A stretch of 64,000 bases of DNA from Calothrix sp. PCC 7103 (GTDB lineage Bacteria; Cyanobacteriota; Cyanobacteriia; Cyanobacteriales; Nostocaceae): the NCBI RefSeq assembly GCF_000331305.1, contig NZ_KB217478.1:4933595-4997594 (forward strand). Reading direction: 5' to 3'. Both the position numbers and the translations under genes were made by a program. Shown here piece after piece: positions 21,898 through 60,738 of the stretch. Positions within the stretch are counted from its first letter, which is position 1. Every line of letters begins with the position of its first letter. The notes below the pieces were generated by a model. It ran no database searches. It had not been told where the DNA came from and saw nothing but the letters and a program-made list of their open reading frames with translations.

Positions 21898-24243
21898 TCA
21901 GCACTCTATTGAAAGTCTTCGTTCGATAGCGTTAAGAAAGTTGGAGCTGATTTCTTCAATCGTAACTCTGATTAAAGTTTGGTTATCAGATGTTGTTACC
22001 TGCAAAGCAGTGTCGCAATTACCGACCTTGCCAAGTTTTTGCCAATGATTAGCCAAGTTTTTATTTATGTATGATTCCCATTCTCTTTGTAGTTCTGGTG
22101 GTATCGAGACTACTATTCTGGCGCCACTTTCTCCAAACAGCAATTCATCAAGGCGTATATTAGCTATGTCGTTGGATAGTAATTCTATAGTGGCGCCTTT
22201 TTTGGAAGCAATACAACATTCTGCAAGTGCTACAGTTAAACCACCTTCCGCACAGTCATGGGCTGAACGTATCCAGTTTTGATGAATTCCTTGACGGCAA
22301 ACTTTTTGGACTTGACGTTCTAAATCAAAATCGATACGTGGCGGTTTACCAGCAATAGTATTATGAATTGTCGCTAAATATTCTGATGCTCCTAGTTCGG
22401 TTTTAGATTGTACGGTTACACCTAATAAGTAAATTACATCACCTGGTTCTTGCCAAGCTTGACCACAAATATTGTTTAAATTGCTTATTGCACCTACCAT
22501 TCCCACTACAGGTGTTGGATAAATTGCTTGTGGATTTCCCTCTGAGTCAAGTGTCTCATTATATAGAGAAACGTTTCCACCTGTGACGGGAGTTTCTAAT
22601 TCGCGGCAACCTTCTGCTAAACCTCGACAAGCTTCTGATAATTGCCAGTAACCTATAGGTTTTTCTGGACTACCGAAATTTAAGTTATCTGTAACTGCTA
22701 TTGGTTCGGCGCCTACACAGCTAAGATTACGTGCAGCTTCAGCAACAACAGCTTTGGCACCTTCATATGGGTCAAGATAAACGTAACGCGGATTGCAGTC
22801 AACAGTAGCAGCAACACCCGAAGAGAAAGTAGAATTTTGTACTCCTTCCAGGGGACGTAATCTTAATATTGCAGCATCGGCGCCGCCTGGAAGCATAACC
22901 GTATTATTCTGGACTTGATGGTCATATTGACGGTAAACCCAACGTTTCGACGCAATAGTTGGTGTATCGAGCAAAGTTAATAAAACATCGTTCCAAGTTA
23001 GCTTTTTACCTTGCACTTCAATCCCAGATGCTGTACAGCTAGGTAATTTTTCAGGTGTCCATTCCCAAGCTTTTTGAGCATATTCTGGTGGTTCTTTGAG
23101 TAATGCGCGCTCATATAAGGGGGTATTTTCTGCCAATGCGGAAGCAGGAATAAGGGCGGCAATTTCTCCCTTGAATAAAATTCTGACTATGGGTTCTTCA
23201 ATTACGGTACCTGCAACAACTGCATGAAGTCCCCAACGATGGAAAATATCAATTAACTCTTGTTCGCGTCCTTTGTGTGCGACAAACAACATCCGTTCTT
23301 GTGACTCCGAAAGTAGATATTCATATGGCACCATCCCAGTTTCGCGCACTGGTACTTTATCTAAATCAAACTCAATTCCCACTCCACCTTTTGCCGCCAT
23401 TTCGGCAGTAGAACAAGTAATACCTGCTGCTCCCATATCTTGGGCAGCTACTACGGCACCTGTTTTAAAGGCTTCTAAACAAGCTTCAATTAAAGATTTC
23501 TCTAAAAATGGGTCGCCTACCTGTACAGCCGGACGGTCATCCATTGATTCCGCGCTAAGTTCGGCACTCGCAAAACTGGCGCCTCCCATACCATCACGTC
23601 CTGTTGTGGAACCAACATATAATACAGGGTTGCCAAATCCGGAGGCACCAGATTTTACTATTTCTGGTGTTTCCATCAAACCCAGTGCCATCACATTCAC
23701 CAAAGGGTTGCCAGAATAAGCAGGGTCAAAATAAACTTCTCCACCAACAGTGGGCACCCCAACCGCATTGCCGTAATGAGATATACCAGCAACTACACCT
23801 TGAAATAATCTTTGAGTTTTAGAATCCTCTAAGGAACCAAATCGCAGCGAATTTAGTACAGCAATGGGACGCGCACCCATTGTAAAAATATCTCTAAGTA
23901 TACCACCAACACCTGTAGCGGCGCCTTGAAATGGTTCGACGGCAGAAGGGTGATTATGGGATTCGATTTTAAACGCTAGTTGTAAACCATCACCAATGTC
24001 CACAACACCAGCATTTTCACCAGGACCAACGAGAATGCGCTTACCTGTGGTAGGGAACTGCTTTAATAAAGGTCGAGAATTTTTATAGCAGCAGTGTTCT
24101 GACCACATTACACCAAACATTCCCAACTCGGCTTTATTGGGATGGCGCCCTAATCTATTAAATATTTCTTGGTATTCTTCGGGCTTAATGCCTTCTTCGG
24201 CGATTTCTTGAGGAGAAAACGGAGGTTGTGAGGAGACGGTCAT
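21898..24243 (-). CDS. purL: Phosphoribosylformylglycinamidine synthase subunit PurL
   Basis: The 781-residue small-type PurL, the ATP- and FGAR-binding subunit that works with PurS and PurQ. Visible are [21 protein letters not shown] with the catalytic His, the metal/ATP loop [44 protein letters not shown]-type Gly loop ([12 protein letters not shown]) and the second half GGNVSLYNE. The length is right for PurL of the purSQL type. PurF is downstream on the same strand. The gene start at ATG 24243 is well supported by [15 protein letters not shown], typical of cyanobacterial PurL. Confidence 0.97.
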
Positions 24244-24622
24244 ATTGAAGTATGCACCATTAGGAACAGACGAATATTTTACCTATTTCTGTCACCACTG
24301 TGTTAATTACCAAGCGCCAAAACCCGGTTTCTAAGATTTTAGTCATTTTAATTCATTAGCCGTTATTATATAGAGTATTGGCATAACTTATTGACATTGT
24401 AACAGTGCTTACAGTTATAAATGACTTTATATGCATAAATACCAGCAAAATCGGTATCAAGCATAGCGCTAGATTTTTTAAGGTTCAAACTGAATAAGTA
24501 AATTCAGGCGCCCTTGGAGAAGAGGGATGATATAAAACAGCAGGCGCCTGTATTGTGATGAGAATCACATTGATACATGATTAAGATCGTCTTCTTACGG
24601 TTGTGAAACTGGAATAATAAGG
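24244..24622. other. Intergenic region upstream of purL and the sRNA array
   Basis: 379 bp containing the purL promoter (minus strand) and the first CRP-type site at 24554-24569. A short inverted pair of GGCGCC-centred words (AGGCGCCC at 24508, AGGCGCCTG at 24542) lies before the array. No ORF is seen. Confidence 0.5.
24554..24569. promoter_or_regulatory. CRP-type site, array unit 1
   Basis: TGTGATGAGAATCACA is a perfect TGTGA-N6-TCACA palindrome, the consensus of cAMP receptor proteins including the cyanobacterial SYCRP1/AnCrpA type. Its centre is exactly 54 bp before the centre of the -10 candidate AATAAT (24613-24618). Confidence 0.8.
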
Positions 24623-24703
24623 ATACTGAACTCTAGCCGAGTCATTAATAGGGAACACACTAAGCGCCGACAGCCTTTTACAAGACTGTCGGTTTTTTGT
24701 TTT
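24623..24703 (+). ncRNA. Putative small RNA, tandem unit 1
   Basis: The unit runs from a -10-like AATAAT (24613-24618) through the conserved core beginning GAACTCTAGCCGAGTC at 24628 to a rho-independent terminator (CCGACAG 24667-24673, CTGTCGG 24686-24692, then TTTTTTGTTTT). A small 5' hairpin ACTC-TAGCC-GAGT precedes an unpaired stretch containing AGGGAACACAC. The loop of the terminator differs from units 2 and 3 (CCTTTTACAAGA against CCTTTGAACGAGA). The core is nearly identical in three copies at 180-bp spacing. The RNA is predicted only from sequence. Confidence 0.8.
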
Positions 24704-24731
24704 ACACGTAAATCCGTTTAATTGCTTATAG

Positions 24732-24747
24732 TGTGACGCTAATCACA
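24732..24747. promoter_or_regulatory. CRP-type site, array unit 2
   Basis: TGTGACGCTAATCACA is a second perfect TGTGA-N6-TCACA site. Its centre is again 54 bp before that of the -10 candidate CATAAT (24791-24796). The six middle bases differ from unit 1, so the half-sites are conserved while the spacer drifts. Confidence 0.8.
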
Positions 24748-24802
24748 AACTTATATGATGTTGGTCGTATCGCACACAGTACAAGGGGTGCATAATAAAA
24801 AA

Positions 24803-24885
24803 CAACTGAACTCTAGCCGAGTCATTAATAGGGAACACACTAAGCGCCGACAGCCTTTGAACGAGACTGTCGGTTTTTTGTTTTT
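24803..24885 (+). ncRNA. Putative small RNA, tandem unit 2
   Basis: The core starts GAACTC at 24808, has the same internal sequence as unit 1, and ends with a terminator (CCGACAG 24847-24853, CTGTCGG 24867-24873, TTTTTTGTTTTT). The -10 candidate is CATAAT at 24791-24796. A frame on the opposite strand (24751-25134) is an artefact of the repeats. Confidence 0.8.
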
Positions 24886-24911
24886 GTACTCACAGCTTTC
24901 GTTGTTGACAG

Positions 24912-24927
24912 TGTGACGTGTATCACA
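24912..24927. promoter_or_regulatory. CRP-type site, array unit 3
   Basis: TGTGACGTGTATCACA is a third perfect TGTGA-N6-TCACA site with the same 54-bp centre-to-centre distance to the -10 candidate CATAAT (24971-24976). Confidence 0.8.
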
Positions 24928-24982
24928 AGCATTGATGATTAAAATCGTATCGCAAACAGAAAAAATGGCACATAATAAAAGA

Positions 24983-25085
24983 TAACTGAACTCTAGCCGA
25001 GTCATTAATAGGGAACACACTAAGCGCCGACAGCCTTTGAACGAGACTGTCGGTTTTTTGTTTTTATAGTTAGGTACATAAAATT
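24983..25085 (+). ncRNA. Putative small RNA, tandem unit 3
   Basis: The core starts GAACTC at 24988 (180 bp after unit 2) and ends with a terminator (CCGACAG 25027-25033, CTGTCGG 25047-25053, then TTTTTTGTTTTTA). The 5' core and terminator are identical to unit 2. The predicted transcript is about 80 nt, so the real 3' end is probably close to 25066. Downstream DNA up to apcD shows an inverted pair (CCCCACAACTCGTTGG about 25087, CAACAAGCTGTGGGG about 25128) that can serve apcD on the minus strand as a terminator. Confidence 0.75.
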
Positions 25086-25211
25086 TCCCCACAACTCGTT
25101 GGTAGTTCGACACTAATGCCAAGCTTTCCAACAAGCTGTGGGGAGTTACAATCTTAATAGATTATTTATATCGAGGCTTCGAGCTAGTGCGCTACCGAAG
25201 AAAAGGTTTGA

Positions 25212-25697
25212 TTATGACATTCCTTGAATGATGTAATCAAAGTAAGGTGCTGCTTGAGAAGCATCGTCAGCAGTAAGCAAGTCGAGAGACGCAGCTTTAA
25301 GACAGCCTATCGCTTCTACCATTCCGGGTAGGGGTACACCCAAGGAATTATACATTTCGCGGGCGCCGACGATACCAATTTTTTCGATTGGCTCTATGTC
25401 ACCAGCAAGAACACCGTATGTAACGAGACGTAAGTACCAGCCAAAATCGCGGATACATTGAGCGCGCTCACGTTGTCCGTAAGCATTACCTCCAGGAGAG
25501 ATAAAGTCAGGACGCTTACGCCATAATTGTTTAGTTGCTTCTTGAACAATTTTCTTTTCGTTTTCAGAGAGGGTAGAAACAATGCGTACCCGCTGTGTAC
25601 CTGTTGTCAAAAAGTCTTTGATACTTTTGAGTTCGCCACTGCTAGGGTAACGCAGTTCGTCGTCGGCTTTGAGAATAACTTGGCTTACTACAGTCAT
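25212..25697 (-). CDS. apcD: Allophycocyanin-B alpha subunit ApcD
   Basis: A 161-residue phycobiliprotein of the phycobilisome core. The start [23 protein letters not shown] is the ApcD-type opening; the chromophore Cys is in [17 protein letters not shown] at about residue 81; the C-terminus is [11 protein letters not shown]. ApcD is one of the terminal emitters and directs energy to photosystem I. Its sequence is closer to ApcD than to ApcA. It is a single gene between the sRNA array and rlmD (divergent). Confidence 0.93.
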
Positions 25698-44570: not shown

Positions 44571-45209
44571 AAGATTTCCTGGTATGCGAGAAACTCAGAC
44601 ACGAAGCGTGCTGAGAGGGAAGCGACGCAAGCGATTTTAATCGCATTAAATATTTCCCCTTTCGGGGTGAATAAGTAGAGGAGTAGTACTTATTCGTATC
44701 TCTGTAATGCCGAGAATTGCCTTCCCTACTCGGAGTAATGTTAGCCTCGATAATGTTATTGGTCGGTACTATCCAAACGACACGTTCTTAACTCAATAAA
44801 AATGTTTAATCGTTCGGTTCTTTCTTCACGGGACTGGCTACGTATCCCGGAGTAGGTCTTTAACTCTTGCCAATAACGTAGTATCCGGAGATACTGAATC
44901 TGGTCAACTAAATCTAAAGGCTTAAGCTAGAAGCGAGCGTGTCTTTAGACCTGAGTCGTTGACAGCATGTTATATATATGGAATACAGGCTGCCACCCAT
45001 AGAATTATAGCAAAAATAGTGGCGTTGCTAAATCCAGGTATAAAAATCTCCTTAATCTTAAGCAAGAGTCTCAGTAGAAGGGCATTCACTGAGTGGTGAC
45101 CAAATAAAAGGTTGGATTTAACGCGAATTGAATTAAGGTGTCGGTAGTGTACATGGTAACGTGCGCCAAATGTCAATTTGACAAATTAAGCAATTTCCAA
45201 AAATGTTAA
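44571..45209. other. Structured, apparently non-coding or decayed mobile DNA
   Basis: 639 bp upstream of parD and downstream of the AAA ATPase gene. Between about 44650 and 44980 there are several stems: CCCC-TTT-CGGGG (44656), CCGAG...CTCGG (44710-44732), CGGGAC...TCCCGG (44829-44850), AGTATC...GATACT (44880-44895), and nested GTCAAC/GTTGAC with TCTAAAG/CTTTAGA (44903-44962). At 45021 there is GGCGTTGCTAAATCCAGG, like the end of the MITE at 30928; the minus-strand frame beside it looks like the tail of a lost transposase. I cannot identify a family. Confidence 0.45.
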
Positions 45210-59594: not shown

Positions 59595-59672
59595 AAAAGC
59601 AAAAAGCGCTTGGACGTGTGACCGTGTTTCCACTCCAAGCGCTTTCTGTTTTCAACTTACTCCTCACACACC
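59595..59672 (-). ncRNA. Yfr2-family small RNA, copy A
   Basis: On the minus strand: a -10 candidate TATCCT (59678-59683), a 5' end GGGGTGTGTGAGGAGTAAG, a linker, then a hairpin AAGCGCTTGGA / TCCAAGCGCTT whose loop contains TGGAAACACGG, followed by TTTTTGCTTTT as terminator. The loop motif GGAAACA is the hallmark of the Yfr2 (CyR1) family of cyanobacterial sRNAs. The 5' segment contains GTGTGAGGAGT, complementary to the Yfr1 core ACTCCTCACAC. Length is about 75-80 nt. Copies B and C show compensatory changes in the stem. Confidence 0.85.
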
Positions 59673-59772
59673 CCTAAAGGATATCCCTTGTTGTCGAATA
59701 TGGCAAGTGTTTAGGACAACTTTTTGTAAAATCTTTCAAACTACTGTATAATTATGTAACGATAGGCGCCGT

Positions 59773-60006
59773 TTATCGCTTCTGGATAACAATATCAGGA
59801 TAACCTTGGTGTACTACAACAAACTGCTCAATCCCAATATCCAAATTCGCGATGGCATCTGCATCCTTGGAAATAGTCGTCCTCTTGGCTGGAGTCTGAC
59901 AATAAAAATATAAAGTTTTTTGCTTGGGGTCAAATTGTAGCTGACAAATACCCCAAAAAGGAAAGCGATGCGCCCAAAATTGGCAAATTAAATGAATGTA
60001 ACTCAT
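59773..60006 (-). CDS. Small conserved hypothetical protein
   Basis: A 77-residue protein starting MSYIHLICQFWAHRFPFWGI. It has a Cys/Trp-rich first half and the end IANLDIGIEQFVVVHQGYPD before a short basic tail. The composition is coding-like. It has no signal peptide or membrane helix. I have seen similar short cyanobacterial proteins but cannot name a family. Confidence 0.6.
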   Translation of the reverse strand: MSYIHLICQFWAHRFPFWGICQLQFDPKQKTLYFYCQTPAKRTTISKDADAIANLDIGIEQFVVVHQGYPDIVIQKR

Positions 60007-60351
60007 GCCTTACAGCTACTCCAGGAAAGGTGTAGATTTGTGAATCGCAATTAATTAGTAAAAATTTTGTTTGATAGGCGCCATAATAAAGCGCTAGGCT
60101 TTTGATTAAGGCTAACGCTAGAAAGTATGGTGCAAAAGTGATAAAATTCCAAACTCCGAGCCTTTATGTAAAGTGACCCGTTTGAGTGGAGAGTTTTTAA
60201 CTAGCTTTTAGATTCGCATCAAATACGCCTGTCTAATCGAACTTTAAGACTTTTTTCAGAATTGGGAACTTAATGTGGCGATATTACGTCCTCAACCTGC
60301 TGAAAATATTTTATACAAGAAGTTACTGAATATAAGATTTTTATATTTGTA
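60007..60351. other. Intergenic region between small gene and Yfr2 copy B
   Basis: 345 bp with a GGCGCC at 60076 and no ORF, hairpin or promoter I can support. Confidence 0.5.
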
Positions 60352-60430
60352 GAAAGCAAAAAGCACCTGGACGTGTGACCGTGTTTCCACTCCAAGCGCT
60401 TTCTGTTCTCAACTTACTCCTCACACACTC
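60352..60430 (-). ncRNA. Yfr2-family small RNA, copy B
   Basis: -10 candidate TATTAT (60435-60440), 5' end GGAGTGTGTGAGGAGTAAG, stem AAGCGCTTGGA / TCCAGGTGCTT (two G-U pairs replace Watson-Crick pairs of copy A), loop with TGGAAACACGG, then TTTTTGCTTTC. The loop and 5' segments are identical to copy A, while the stem drifts but keeps pairing. Confidence 0.85.
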
Positions 60431-60496
60431 CTATATAATAGAGTGTTTTTAAAATAAAACAAGTAATGCTGGTGACACTTTCCTAACTGCACATTC

Positions 60497-60563
60497 AGAA
60501 ACCGAGTTTCTTATAATAACCTACACCAAAAAACCGAATCTCAAACAGAAACCCGGTTTCTTT
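60497..60563. repeat. GAAACC-type palindromes
   Basis: AGAAACCGAGTTTCT (about 60497-60511) and AGAAACCCGGTTTCT (about 60548-60562) are two near-perfect palindromes about 50 bp apart. A half copy, AACCCGGTTTCTA, is at 24327. This is a dispersed palindrome type in cyanobacterial intergenic DNA. Function unknown. Confidence 0.7.
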
Positions 60564-60575
60564 AGTTTAAATAAA

Positions 60576-60653
60576 ATACAAAAAGCGCCTGGACGTGTGA
60601 CCGTGTTTCCACTCCAGACGCTTTATGTATTTTCAACTTACTCCTCACACACC
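60576..60653 (-). ncRNA. Yfr2-family small RNA, copy C
   Basis: -10 candidate TATTCT (60659-60664), 5' end GGGGTGTGTGAGGAGTAAG, stem AAGCGTCTGGA / TCCAGGCGCTT (one G-U pair and compensated positions relative to copy A), loop with TGGAAACACGG, then TTTTTGTATTTT. It starts about 85 bp beyond the purH stop on the same strand. Confidence 0.85.
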
Positions 60654-60738
60654 CCTATAGAATACTCTGGTTTTTTTCAAACCGCAAGTGCTGTACATGA
60701 CAGTTTTAAAATTGGCTAATGGAGTTAGGTGTTAGGAG

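Follow-up and report, generated by a model that had tools for sequence, protein, structure and literature searches.

A candidate CRP-activated small RNA family of cyanobacteria, arranged as a tandem array between purL and apcD in Calothrix sp. PCC 7103

The stretch of DNA analysed here (64,000 nucleotides of Calothrix sp. PCC 7103, contig NZ_KB217478.1, positions 4,933,595 to 4,997,594 of the forward strand; hereafter the window) carries three side-by-side units, repeated about every 180 bp within positions 24554-25059. They are located between two genes that we take, from their translations, to be purL and apcD (allophycocyanin alpha-B), which agrees with the placement proposed in an earlier note on this sequence. 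The features of the locus are the following.

21898-24243, minus strand: purL (ORF list)
24554..24569, plus strand: unit 1 CRP-type operator in the class I position, TGTGATGAGAATCACA (pattern search)
24578..24589, plus strand: unit 1 second, CRP/FNR-like site in the class II position, TGATTAAGATCG (sequence and conservation)
24613..24618, plus strand: unit 1 -10 box, AATAAT (sequence; position conserved)
24625..24698, plus strand: sRNA copy 1 (predicted start 7 nt past the -10 box; end at the terminator T run)
24732..24747, plus strand: unit 2 CRP-type operator, TGTGACGCTAATCACA (pattern search)
24756..24767, plus strand: unit 2 second site, TGATGTTGGTCG, imperfect, with 6/7 consensus positions (sequence against consensus)
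24791..24796, plus strand: unit 2 -10 box, CATAAT (sequence)
24803..24879, plus strand: sRNA copy 2 (start predicted)
24912..24927, plus strand: unit 3 CRP-type operator, TGTGACGTGTATCACA (pattern search)
24936..24947, plus strand: unit 3 second site, TGATTAAAATCG (sequence against consensus)
24971..24976, plus strand: unit 3 -10 box, CATAAT (sequence)
24983..25059, plus strand: sRNA copy 3 (start predicted)
25212..25697, minus strand: apcD, the convergent neighbour (ORF list)

An inverted repeat between the array and apcD (CCCCACAACTCGTTGG ... CCAACAAGCTGTGGGG, 25084-25143) was seen by eye and is perhaps the apcD terminator; the repeat finder did not report it. Elsewhere in the window there is an HEARO RNA (HNH endonuclease-associated RNA; 44735-44963, minus strand, 110.7 bits, above its gathering score), and three Cyano-1 RNAs within about 1.1 kb of the minus strand (59598-60654) make a second sRNA cluster.

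The anatomy of the gene can be read directly from the letters and is the same in each unit: an operator, a second element TGAT-N4-(A/G)TCG, a -10 box, a 54-nt core, and a GC hairpin followed by a T run. The perfect TGTGA-N6-TCACA palindromes previously noticed in three units of about 180 bp are indeed present, at 24554-24569, 24732-24747 and 24912-24927, and there is no further perfect match in the window. When one mismatch is tolerated the window holds four matches against 2.2 expected, a number reached in 15 out of 100 shuffles, and the significance of the operators therefore comes from three perfect, regularly spaced copies and from their conservation, not from the one-mismatch count. In all three units 54 bp separate the centre of the -10 box from that of the operator, exactly as the earlier note had it, and the second element is centred 22 bp downstream of the first operator in each. 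As to the core, its near invariance stands, whilst its length had been underestimated: it was put at about 40 nt, and 54 nt are 100% identical in the three copies. The rho-independent terminator claimed for each unit is likewise there, within a 24-nt block that is 96-100% identical. A protein-coding function is disfavoured, since the 54-nt core contains no ATG, GTG or TTG and a 127-aa ORF on the minus strand is two of the repeats read backwards. The terminators, the lack of start codons in the core and the very strong conservation bear out the reading of the units as sRNA genes.

The three RNAs of the window have similar folds, in which a 5′ hairpin is followed by a largely unpaired middle and the terminator, with z-scores of -2.26, -1.86 and -1.83. 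The 5′ hairpin has two overlapping forms with a common GAGT arm, an inner one (ACTC-N5-GAGT) and an outer one (GACTC-N10-GAGTC). Across 135 distinct segments the inner stem is complete in 118 and the outer stem (at least 4/5 pairs) is found in 46, both being found in 35 and neither in 6; at one distant locus (L353) the outer stem is kept with both of its sides changed. RNAalifold gave no consensus pairs on the 83-sequence MAFFT alignment, in which 96.4% of cells pair when the stated structure is imposed; the 5′ hairpin displays no covariation because its stem barely varies in this alignment. AUYRAYAGGGAACACAC, the open segment, ranks with the best conserved parts of the RNA, at least equal to the stems, and is the likely pairing site. 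An intrinsic terminator and a conserved unpaired segment, both found by sequence and folding, are the marks of a trans-acting sRNA.

The gene is by no means confined to Calothrix. Among 388 genomes of the order, from 149 genera, blastn with one unit as query found it in 97, which belong to 54 genera. A covariance model (R2) applied to 388 sampled genomes of the class, from 160 genera, found the RNA in 187, spread over 86 genera. Model R2 was built from 83 sequences (84 representatives minus L103 and L079, plus the window's third copy) and the two stated stems; an earlier model without base pairs (R1) was not used. Two of the 187 carriers are doubtful, namely G661 (E 0.0096, no promoter by eye) and G256 (E 0.0097, a degenerate copy). 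The RNA occurs also outside the window's family, and the R2 search finds it in genus f58/g176, where genomes measure 2.1-2.8 Mb; the one match in family f34, also of small genomes, is the doubtful G661. A degenerate pattern matches at least 115 stretches from named genomes, and the 80 listed include Nostoc, Calothrix, Fischerella, Tolypothrix, Phormidium, Microseira and Leptolyngbyaceae. Among the 20 non-carriers listed are members of the order's families f2, f8, f10, f13, f14, f18, f20 and f30. In a sample of the phylum the RNA was found in 24 of 146 genomes, and the single match outside the class (G808, E 0.004) is weak and probably due to chance. Viral contigs, plasmids and phages gave no match to the RNA.

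A comparison of array size among relatives, which the earlier note had proposed, places the tandem arrangement in a different light. A single match is found in 155 of the 187 carriers, and the other 32 have more than one, not all in tandem. Regular arrays are nevertheless found in several lineages, with five copies 166-168 bp apart in one genome of family f48 (G456), three copies 163 bp apart in another (G632), and three copies 186 bp apart in a genome of family f1 (G724); the exact pattern occurs five times on one contig in Cyanomargarita and three times each in Pegethrix and Calothrix. As regular arrays recur in different families and most carriers have a single copy, the tandem state reflects amplification and does not define the family. 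Such amplification probably arose several times, as judged without a tree.

The promoter described above is conserved along with the RNA. We searched 110 nt upstream of the RNA in 88 non-redundant upstream regions less than 70% alike. A perfect GTGA-N6-TCAC is found anywhere in the 110 nt in 78 of these and one with at least 7/8 letters in 85, against 0.07% perfect in shuffled sequences; at the expected place, too, 85 of the 88 have at least 7/8, and the three upstreams without a good operator are L075, L148 and L103. Conservation limited to the terminators, which the earlier note had named as evidence against its reading, is thus not what is observed, and the class I CRP-type operator it had postulated is, as far as sequence goes, conserved with the RNA throughout the class. 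The second element is complete in 69 of the 85 and has at least 6/7 positions in 83 (0.16% and 4%, respectively, in shuffled sequences); in these 69 it lies 22 bp (50 cases) or 23 bp (19 cases) from the first site, with the sites measured as full palindromes. In 74 of the 85, a -10 box with at least 5/6 letters is found at a distance of 54-56 bp from the centre of the operator. This distance and that of the second site were measured with a tie-break towards the expected place; a search for the -10 box over the whole stretch with no tie-break gave a unique best match at 54-56 bp in 67 of the 85, tied matches in 16 and a best match elsewhere in 2.

Alignment of 179 distinct units gives the same picture, a largely variable upstream region with marked conservation at GTGA and TCAC, at the second element and at the -10 box, followed by the conserved RNA; the promoter has no conserved -35 box apart from the second site. 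The outermost T of TGTGA is a T in 89 of these units and an A in 76, and since it is replaced by A in many relatives the conserved form of the operator is GTGA-N6-TCAC. The earlier note's statement that the half-sites are kept while the six middle bases drift is true within the array; across the 179 units it is not, as three inner positions are biased towards A (143, 148 and 158 units). A CRP consensus operator stands at the distance from the promoter that is proper to a CRP-activated sRNA. Control by NtcA is disfavoured, for a complete GTA-N8-TAC is missing from all 88 upstreams, 21 of which have a site one letter short of it.

The nature of the second element becomes clearer in the more distant loci. 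We counted 28 of these, leaving out L355 and L356 (neither shows an operator by eye), and GTGA-N6-TCAC with at least 7/8 letters is found in all except L351. Two loci (L353 and L354) have two perfect GTGA-N6-TCAC sites 22 bp apart, and three more (L336, L348 and L349) have two sites 22-23 bp apart, of which one is perfect and the other has no more than one mismatch. Seven loci of family f58 (L337, L339, L341, L342, L344, L345 and L347), on the other hand, have a single site, which falls no more than 2 bp from the second (class II) position, near -41. Dual CRP sites in five distant loci and class II-only sites in seven favour reading the second site as a drifted CRP site. The sequences suggest that CRP sites of both classes, I and II, were most likely present in the ancestral promoter, and that the class II site most likely drifted to ATGAT-N4-ATCGT in Nostoc-like genomes. 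Two loci of family f43 (L343 and L346) display the upstream operator only, with no second GTGA-N6-TCAC. Counting the second site as 16 bp, 21 bp lie between it and the -10 box in the window, which fits the gap of about 22 bp described for CRP-activated promoters of Synechocystis and Nostoc in PMC2633013; the same paper has SyCRP1 and AnCrpA binding TGTGA-N6-TCACA-type sites.

A protein capable of binding such sites is predicted in the Calothrix genome, where a CRP orthologue of 233 aa (G000:C7:8393708-8394406) has CRP-family proteins as its best solved relatives. Its recognition helix ARETVTR resembles the RETVGR of E. coli CRP, and the stretch GEMAALDEVPRST is read, by comparison with the same protein, as the cAMP pocket. 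A CRP match is found in 319 of the 388 class genomes at E<=1e-25 and in 282 at E<=1e-60. At the latter threshold CRP co-occurs with the RNA, being found in 174 of 187 RNA-positive as opposed to 108 of 201 RNA-negative genomes, a contrast inflated by the relatedness of the genomes; the RNA is thus rarely found without CRP, whilst CRP is often found without the RNA. As for the 13 RNA-positive genomes with no strong CRP match, nine are less than 90% complete (G464, G475, G557, G592, G619, G639, G641, G701 and G711) and the tenth is G661, with its doubtful RNA match. In G235, which is 99% complete, only a 95-aa C-terminal fragment of CRP is found (L294; G235:C1:2550404-2550688), with sRNA and operator intact, and G532 and G681 (96% complete) have the RNA and no CRP match.

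The interpretation that we hold with good confidence is that of an sRNA activated by CRP-cAMP and probably acting in trans through its unpaired AAUAGGGAACACAC segment. Each unit would be a complete gene for a non-coding RNA of about 75-80 nt. When cAMP is high, the CRP orthologue would bind the full upstream operator, centred around -63 (class I), as well as the weaker second site, centred around -41 (class II), and would then recruit RNA polymerase, the promoter itself having a good -10 box; we infer, in other words, CRP binding that depends on cAMP and activates rather than represses. The transcript would fold into a short 5′ hairpin (ACTC/GAGT and/or GACTC/GAGTC), the unpaired AUYRAYAGGGAACACAC and the rho-independent terminator, and the unpaired segment would most likely base-pair with mRNAs in trans. 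Tandem copies could raise the dosage of the gene and hence its output.

In principle, one or both sites could instead be bound by another protein of the CRP/FNR family (a DNR/FNR-like protein with helix PETLSR, NtcA or a paralogue), and control would then not be by cAMP. We regard this as unlikely, though as a possibility to be taken seriously, since the Calothrix genome has 15 above-cut-off matches to the Crp-type DNA-binding domain, one with DNR as its best solved relative, and since G235 keeps the operator despite its broken crp. The second site, ATGAT-N4-ATCGT, is also nearer to an FNR-type half-site than to TGTGA. Against such a protein stand the main site, which is a standard CRP site, the lack of a complete NtcA palindrome in the 88 upstreams, and the occurrence of CRP-type sites at the two positions in five of the 28 distant loci.

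The mode of action allows for two other readings. The RNA could titrate a protein via its invariant AGGGAACACA segment, with tandem copies adding binding capacity. Titration would fit the conservation of the open segment, which is no lower than that of the stems, and its multiplication in arrays, yet each RNA has only one motif and the segment has no known protein partner, so that we find this reading rather improbable. More improbable still is an action in cis, or locally, on the convergent apcD rather than on distant mRNAs. Among 220 loci, several of which share a genome and are thus not independent cases, 169 have apcD in view, in every instance downstream of the RNA and convergent with it. 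Of the remainder, two have no RNA match and 49 have the RNA and no apcD in view (some of them ended by the contig or the fetched stretch). These 49 loci speak against a local role, as do the median gap of 238 bp, the termination of every copy in the window before apcD, and a pairing between the RNA and apcD starts that is no better than with shuffled sequences (124 loci, mean z 0.28).

Returning to the preferred trans-acting reading, pairing with other neighbours gave no signal for purF (17 loci), purL (57), a RumA-like gene (60) or an ATPase-like gene (63), and the value for asnS (26 loci; mean z -0.5, 11.5% below -2) is too weak to claim. A search for 20-nt complements in 40 genomes of the family gave 87 matches, a number that includes the RNA genes themselves, while the reversed control gave 58; it pointed to no target. 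Twenty complement places outside the RNA that were inspected include five genome pairs with a match in the same gene region; four of these five regions overlap a coding frame, and the shared matches are no evidence of a target. The fifth (L392 and L393, in two genomes) is a complement to the open segment with three mismatches, 137 nt upstream of a gene which we take to be of the Fur family, and is a weak lead. Counts of an 11-nt pattern are very uneven, with a maximum of 221 per genome as compared with 6 in the control, which simple repeats apparently explain.

Whether the RNA is already known is a separate question. That it is NsiR1 or a near relative, as the earlier note had surmised, is scarcely credible, for although NsiR1 is likewise a short tandem sRNA of filamentous cyanobacteria, the present array lies between purL and apcD rather than upstream of hetF, has relatives beside apcD at 169 of the 220 loci, and differs in copy pattern, in taxonomic range and, as far as its conserved upstream elements (CRP-type sites and a -10 box) show, in promoter. 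The Rfam search which that note had recommended gave (Rfam 15) no family above the gathering threshold in the array, and the eight matches at E<=10 in the region, none of them cyanobacterial, look like chance (GibS has the highest bit score, with 21 bits against the 115 needed). The letters of the core are absent from the PMC texts searched, and no description was found among the papers listed on CRP/cAMP and cyanobacterial sRNAs, or on apcD and sRNAs; the supplementary tables of predicted Nostoc sRNAs (PMC4734099) lie outside these texts and may have an unnamed entry. In a review of cyanobacterial sRNAs (PMC6202907), the main text has no word that starts with CRP or cAMP. A new sRNA family, CRP-activated and probably trans-acting, is thus the likely reading of these sequences. 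The original observation is right and was understated, as the earlier note missed the second, CRP-like class II site, the phylogenetic depth of the family and the fact that the array is an amplification of a mostly single gene.

On a broader scale, the promoter with two sites attached to one sRNA, from Nostoc-like filaments to genomes of Thermosynechococcus size, could be an ancient, class-wide cAMP-CRP riboregulator, serving as a principal output of cAMP signalling and tuned in copy number by repeated independent tandem amplification; we consider the case for this evenly poised. A conserved RNA whose CRP sites were kept through deep divergence would provide a concrete and testable output of cAMP across much of the phylum. 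The known sRNA families of cyanobacteria would gain a well-conserved member, and its tandem arrays in several lineages offer a natural system for sRNA gene dosage.

Several known systems resemble this one in part. Yfr1, Yfr2/Cyano-1 and PsrR1 are likewise widespread cyanobacterial RNAs (PMC4734099 names Yfr1, Yfr2 and ncl0160 as widely conserved); Yfr1 and Yfr2/Cyano-1 differ in that no Rfam family reaches its gathering score in the array, and PsrR1 is set apart, by description only, by its reported control by RpaB. NsiR1 resembles it in arrangement, being a short sRNA whose direct repeats stand in tandem and have a promoter apiece, but PMC9045159 describes it as an RNA of about 60 nt, repeated 12 times in tandem upstream of hetF and dependent on HetR through DIF1 promoters, whereas the present RNA has promoters with CRP-type sites, lies by apcD, is class-wide and is mostly single, the two being compared by description. 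NsiR4 and NsrR1, both controlled by NtcA, share with it a CRP/FNR-family site upstream of a conserved cyanobacterial sRNA; the complete NtcA palindrome, however, is found in 0 of the 88 upstreams here, and NsrR1, which PMC6166021 places between alr1709 and all1710, occurs only in heterocystous strains and in unicellular strains closely related to them. In proposed mode of control, the RNA resembles the sRNA genes under CRP in enterobacteria, a different phylum, where, as the same source has it, CyaR is induced and Spot 42 is repressed by CRP.
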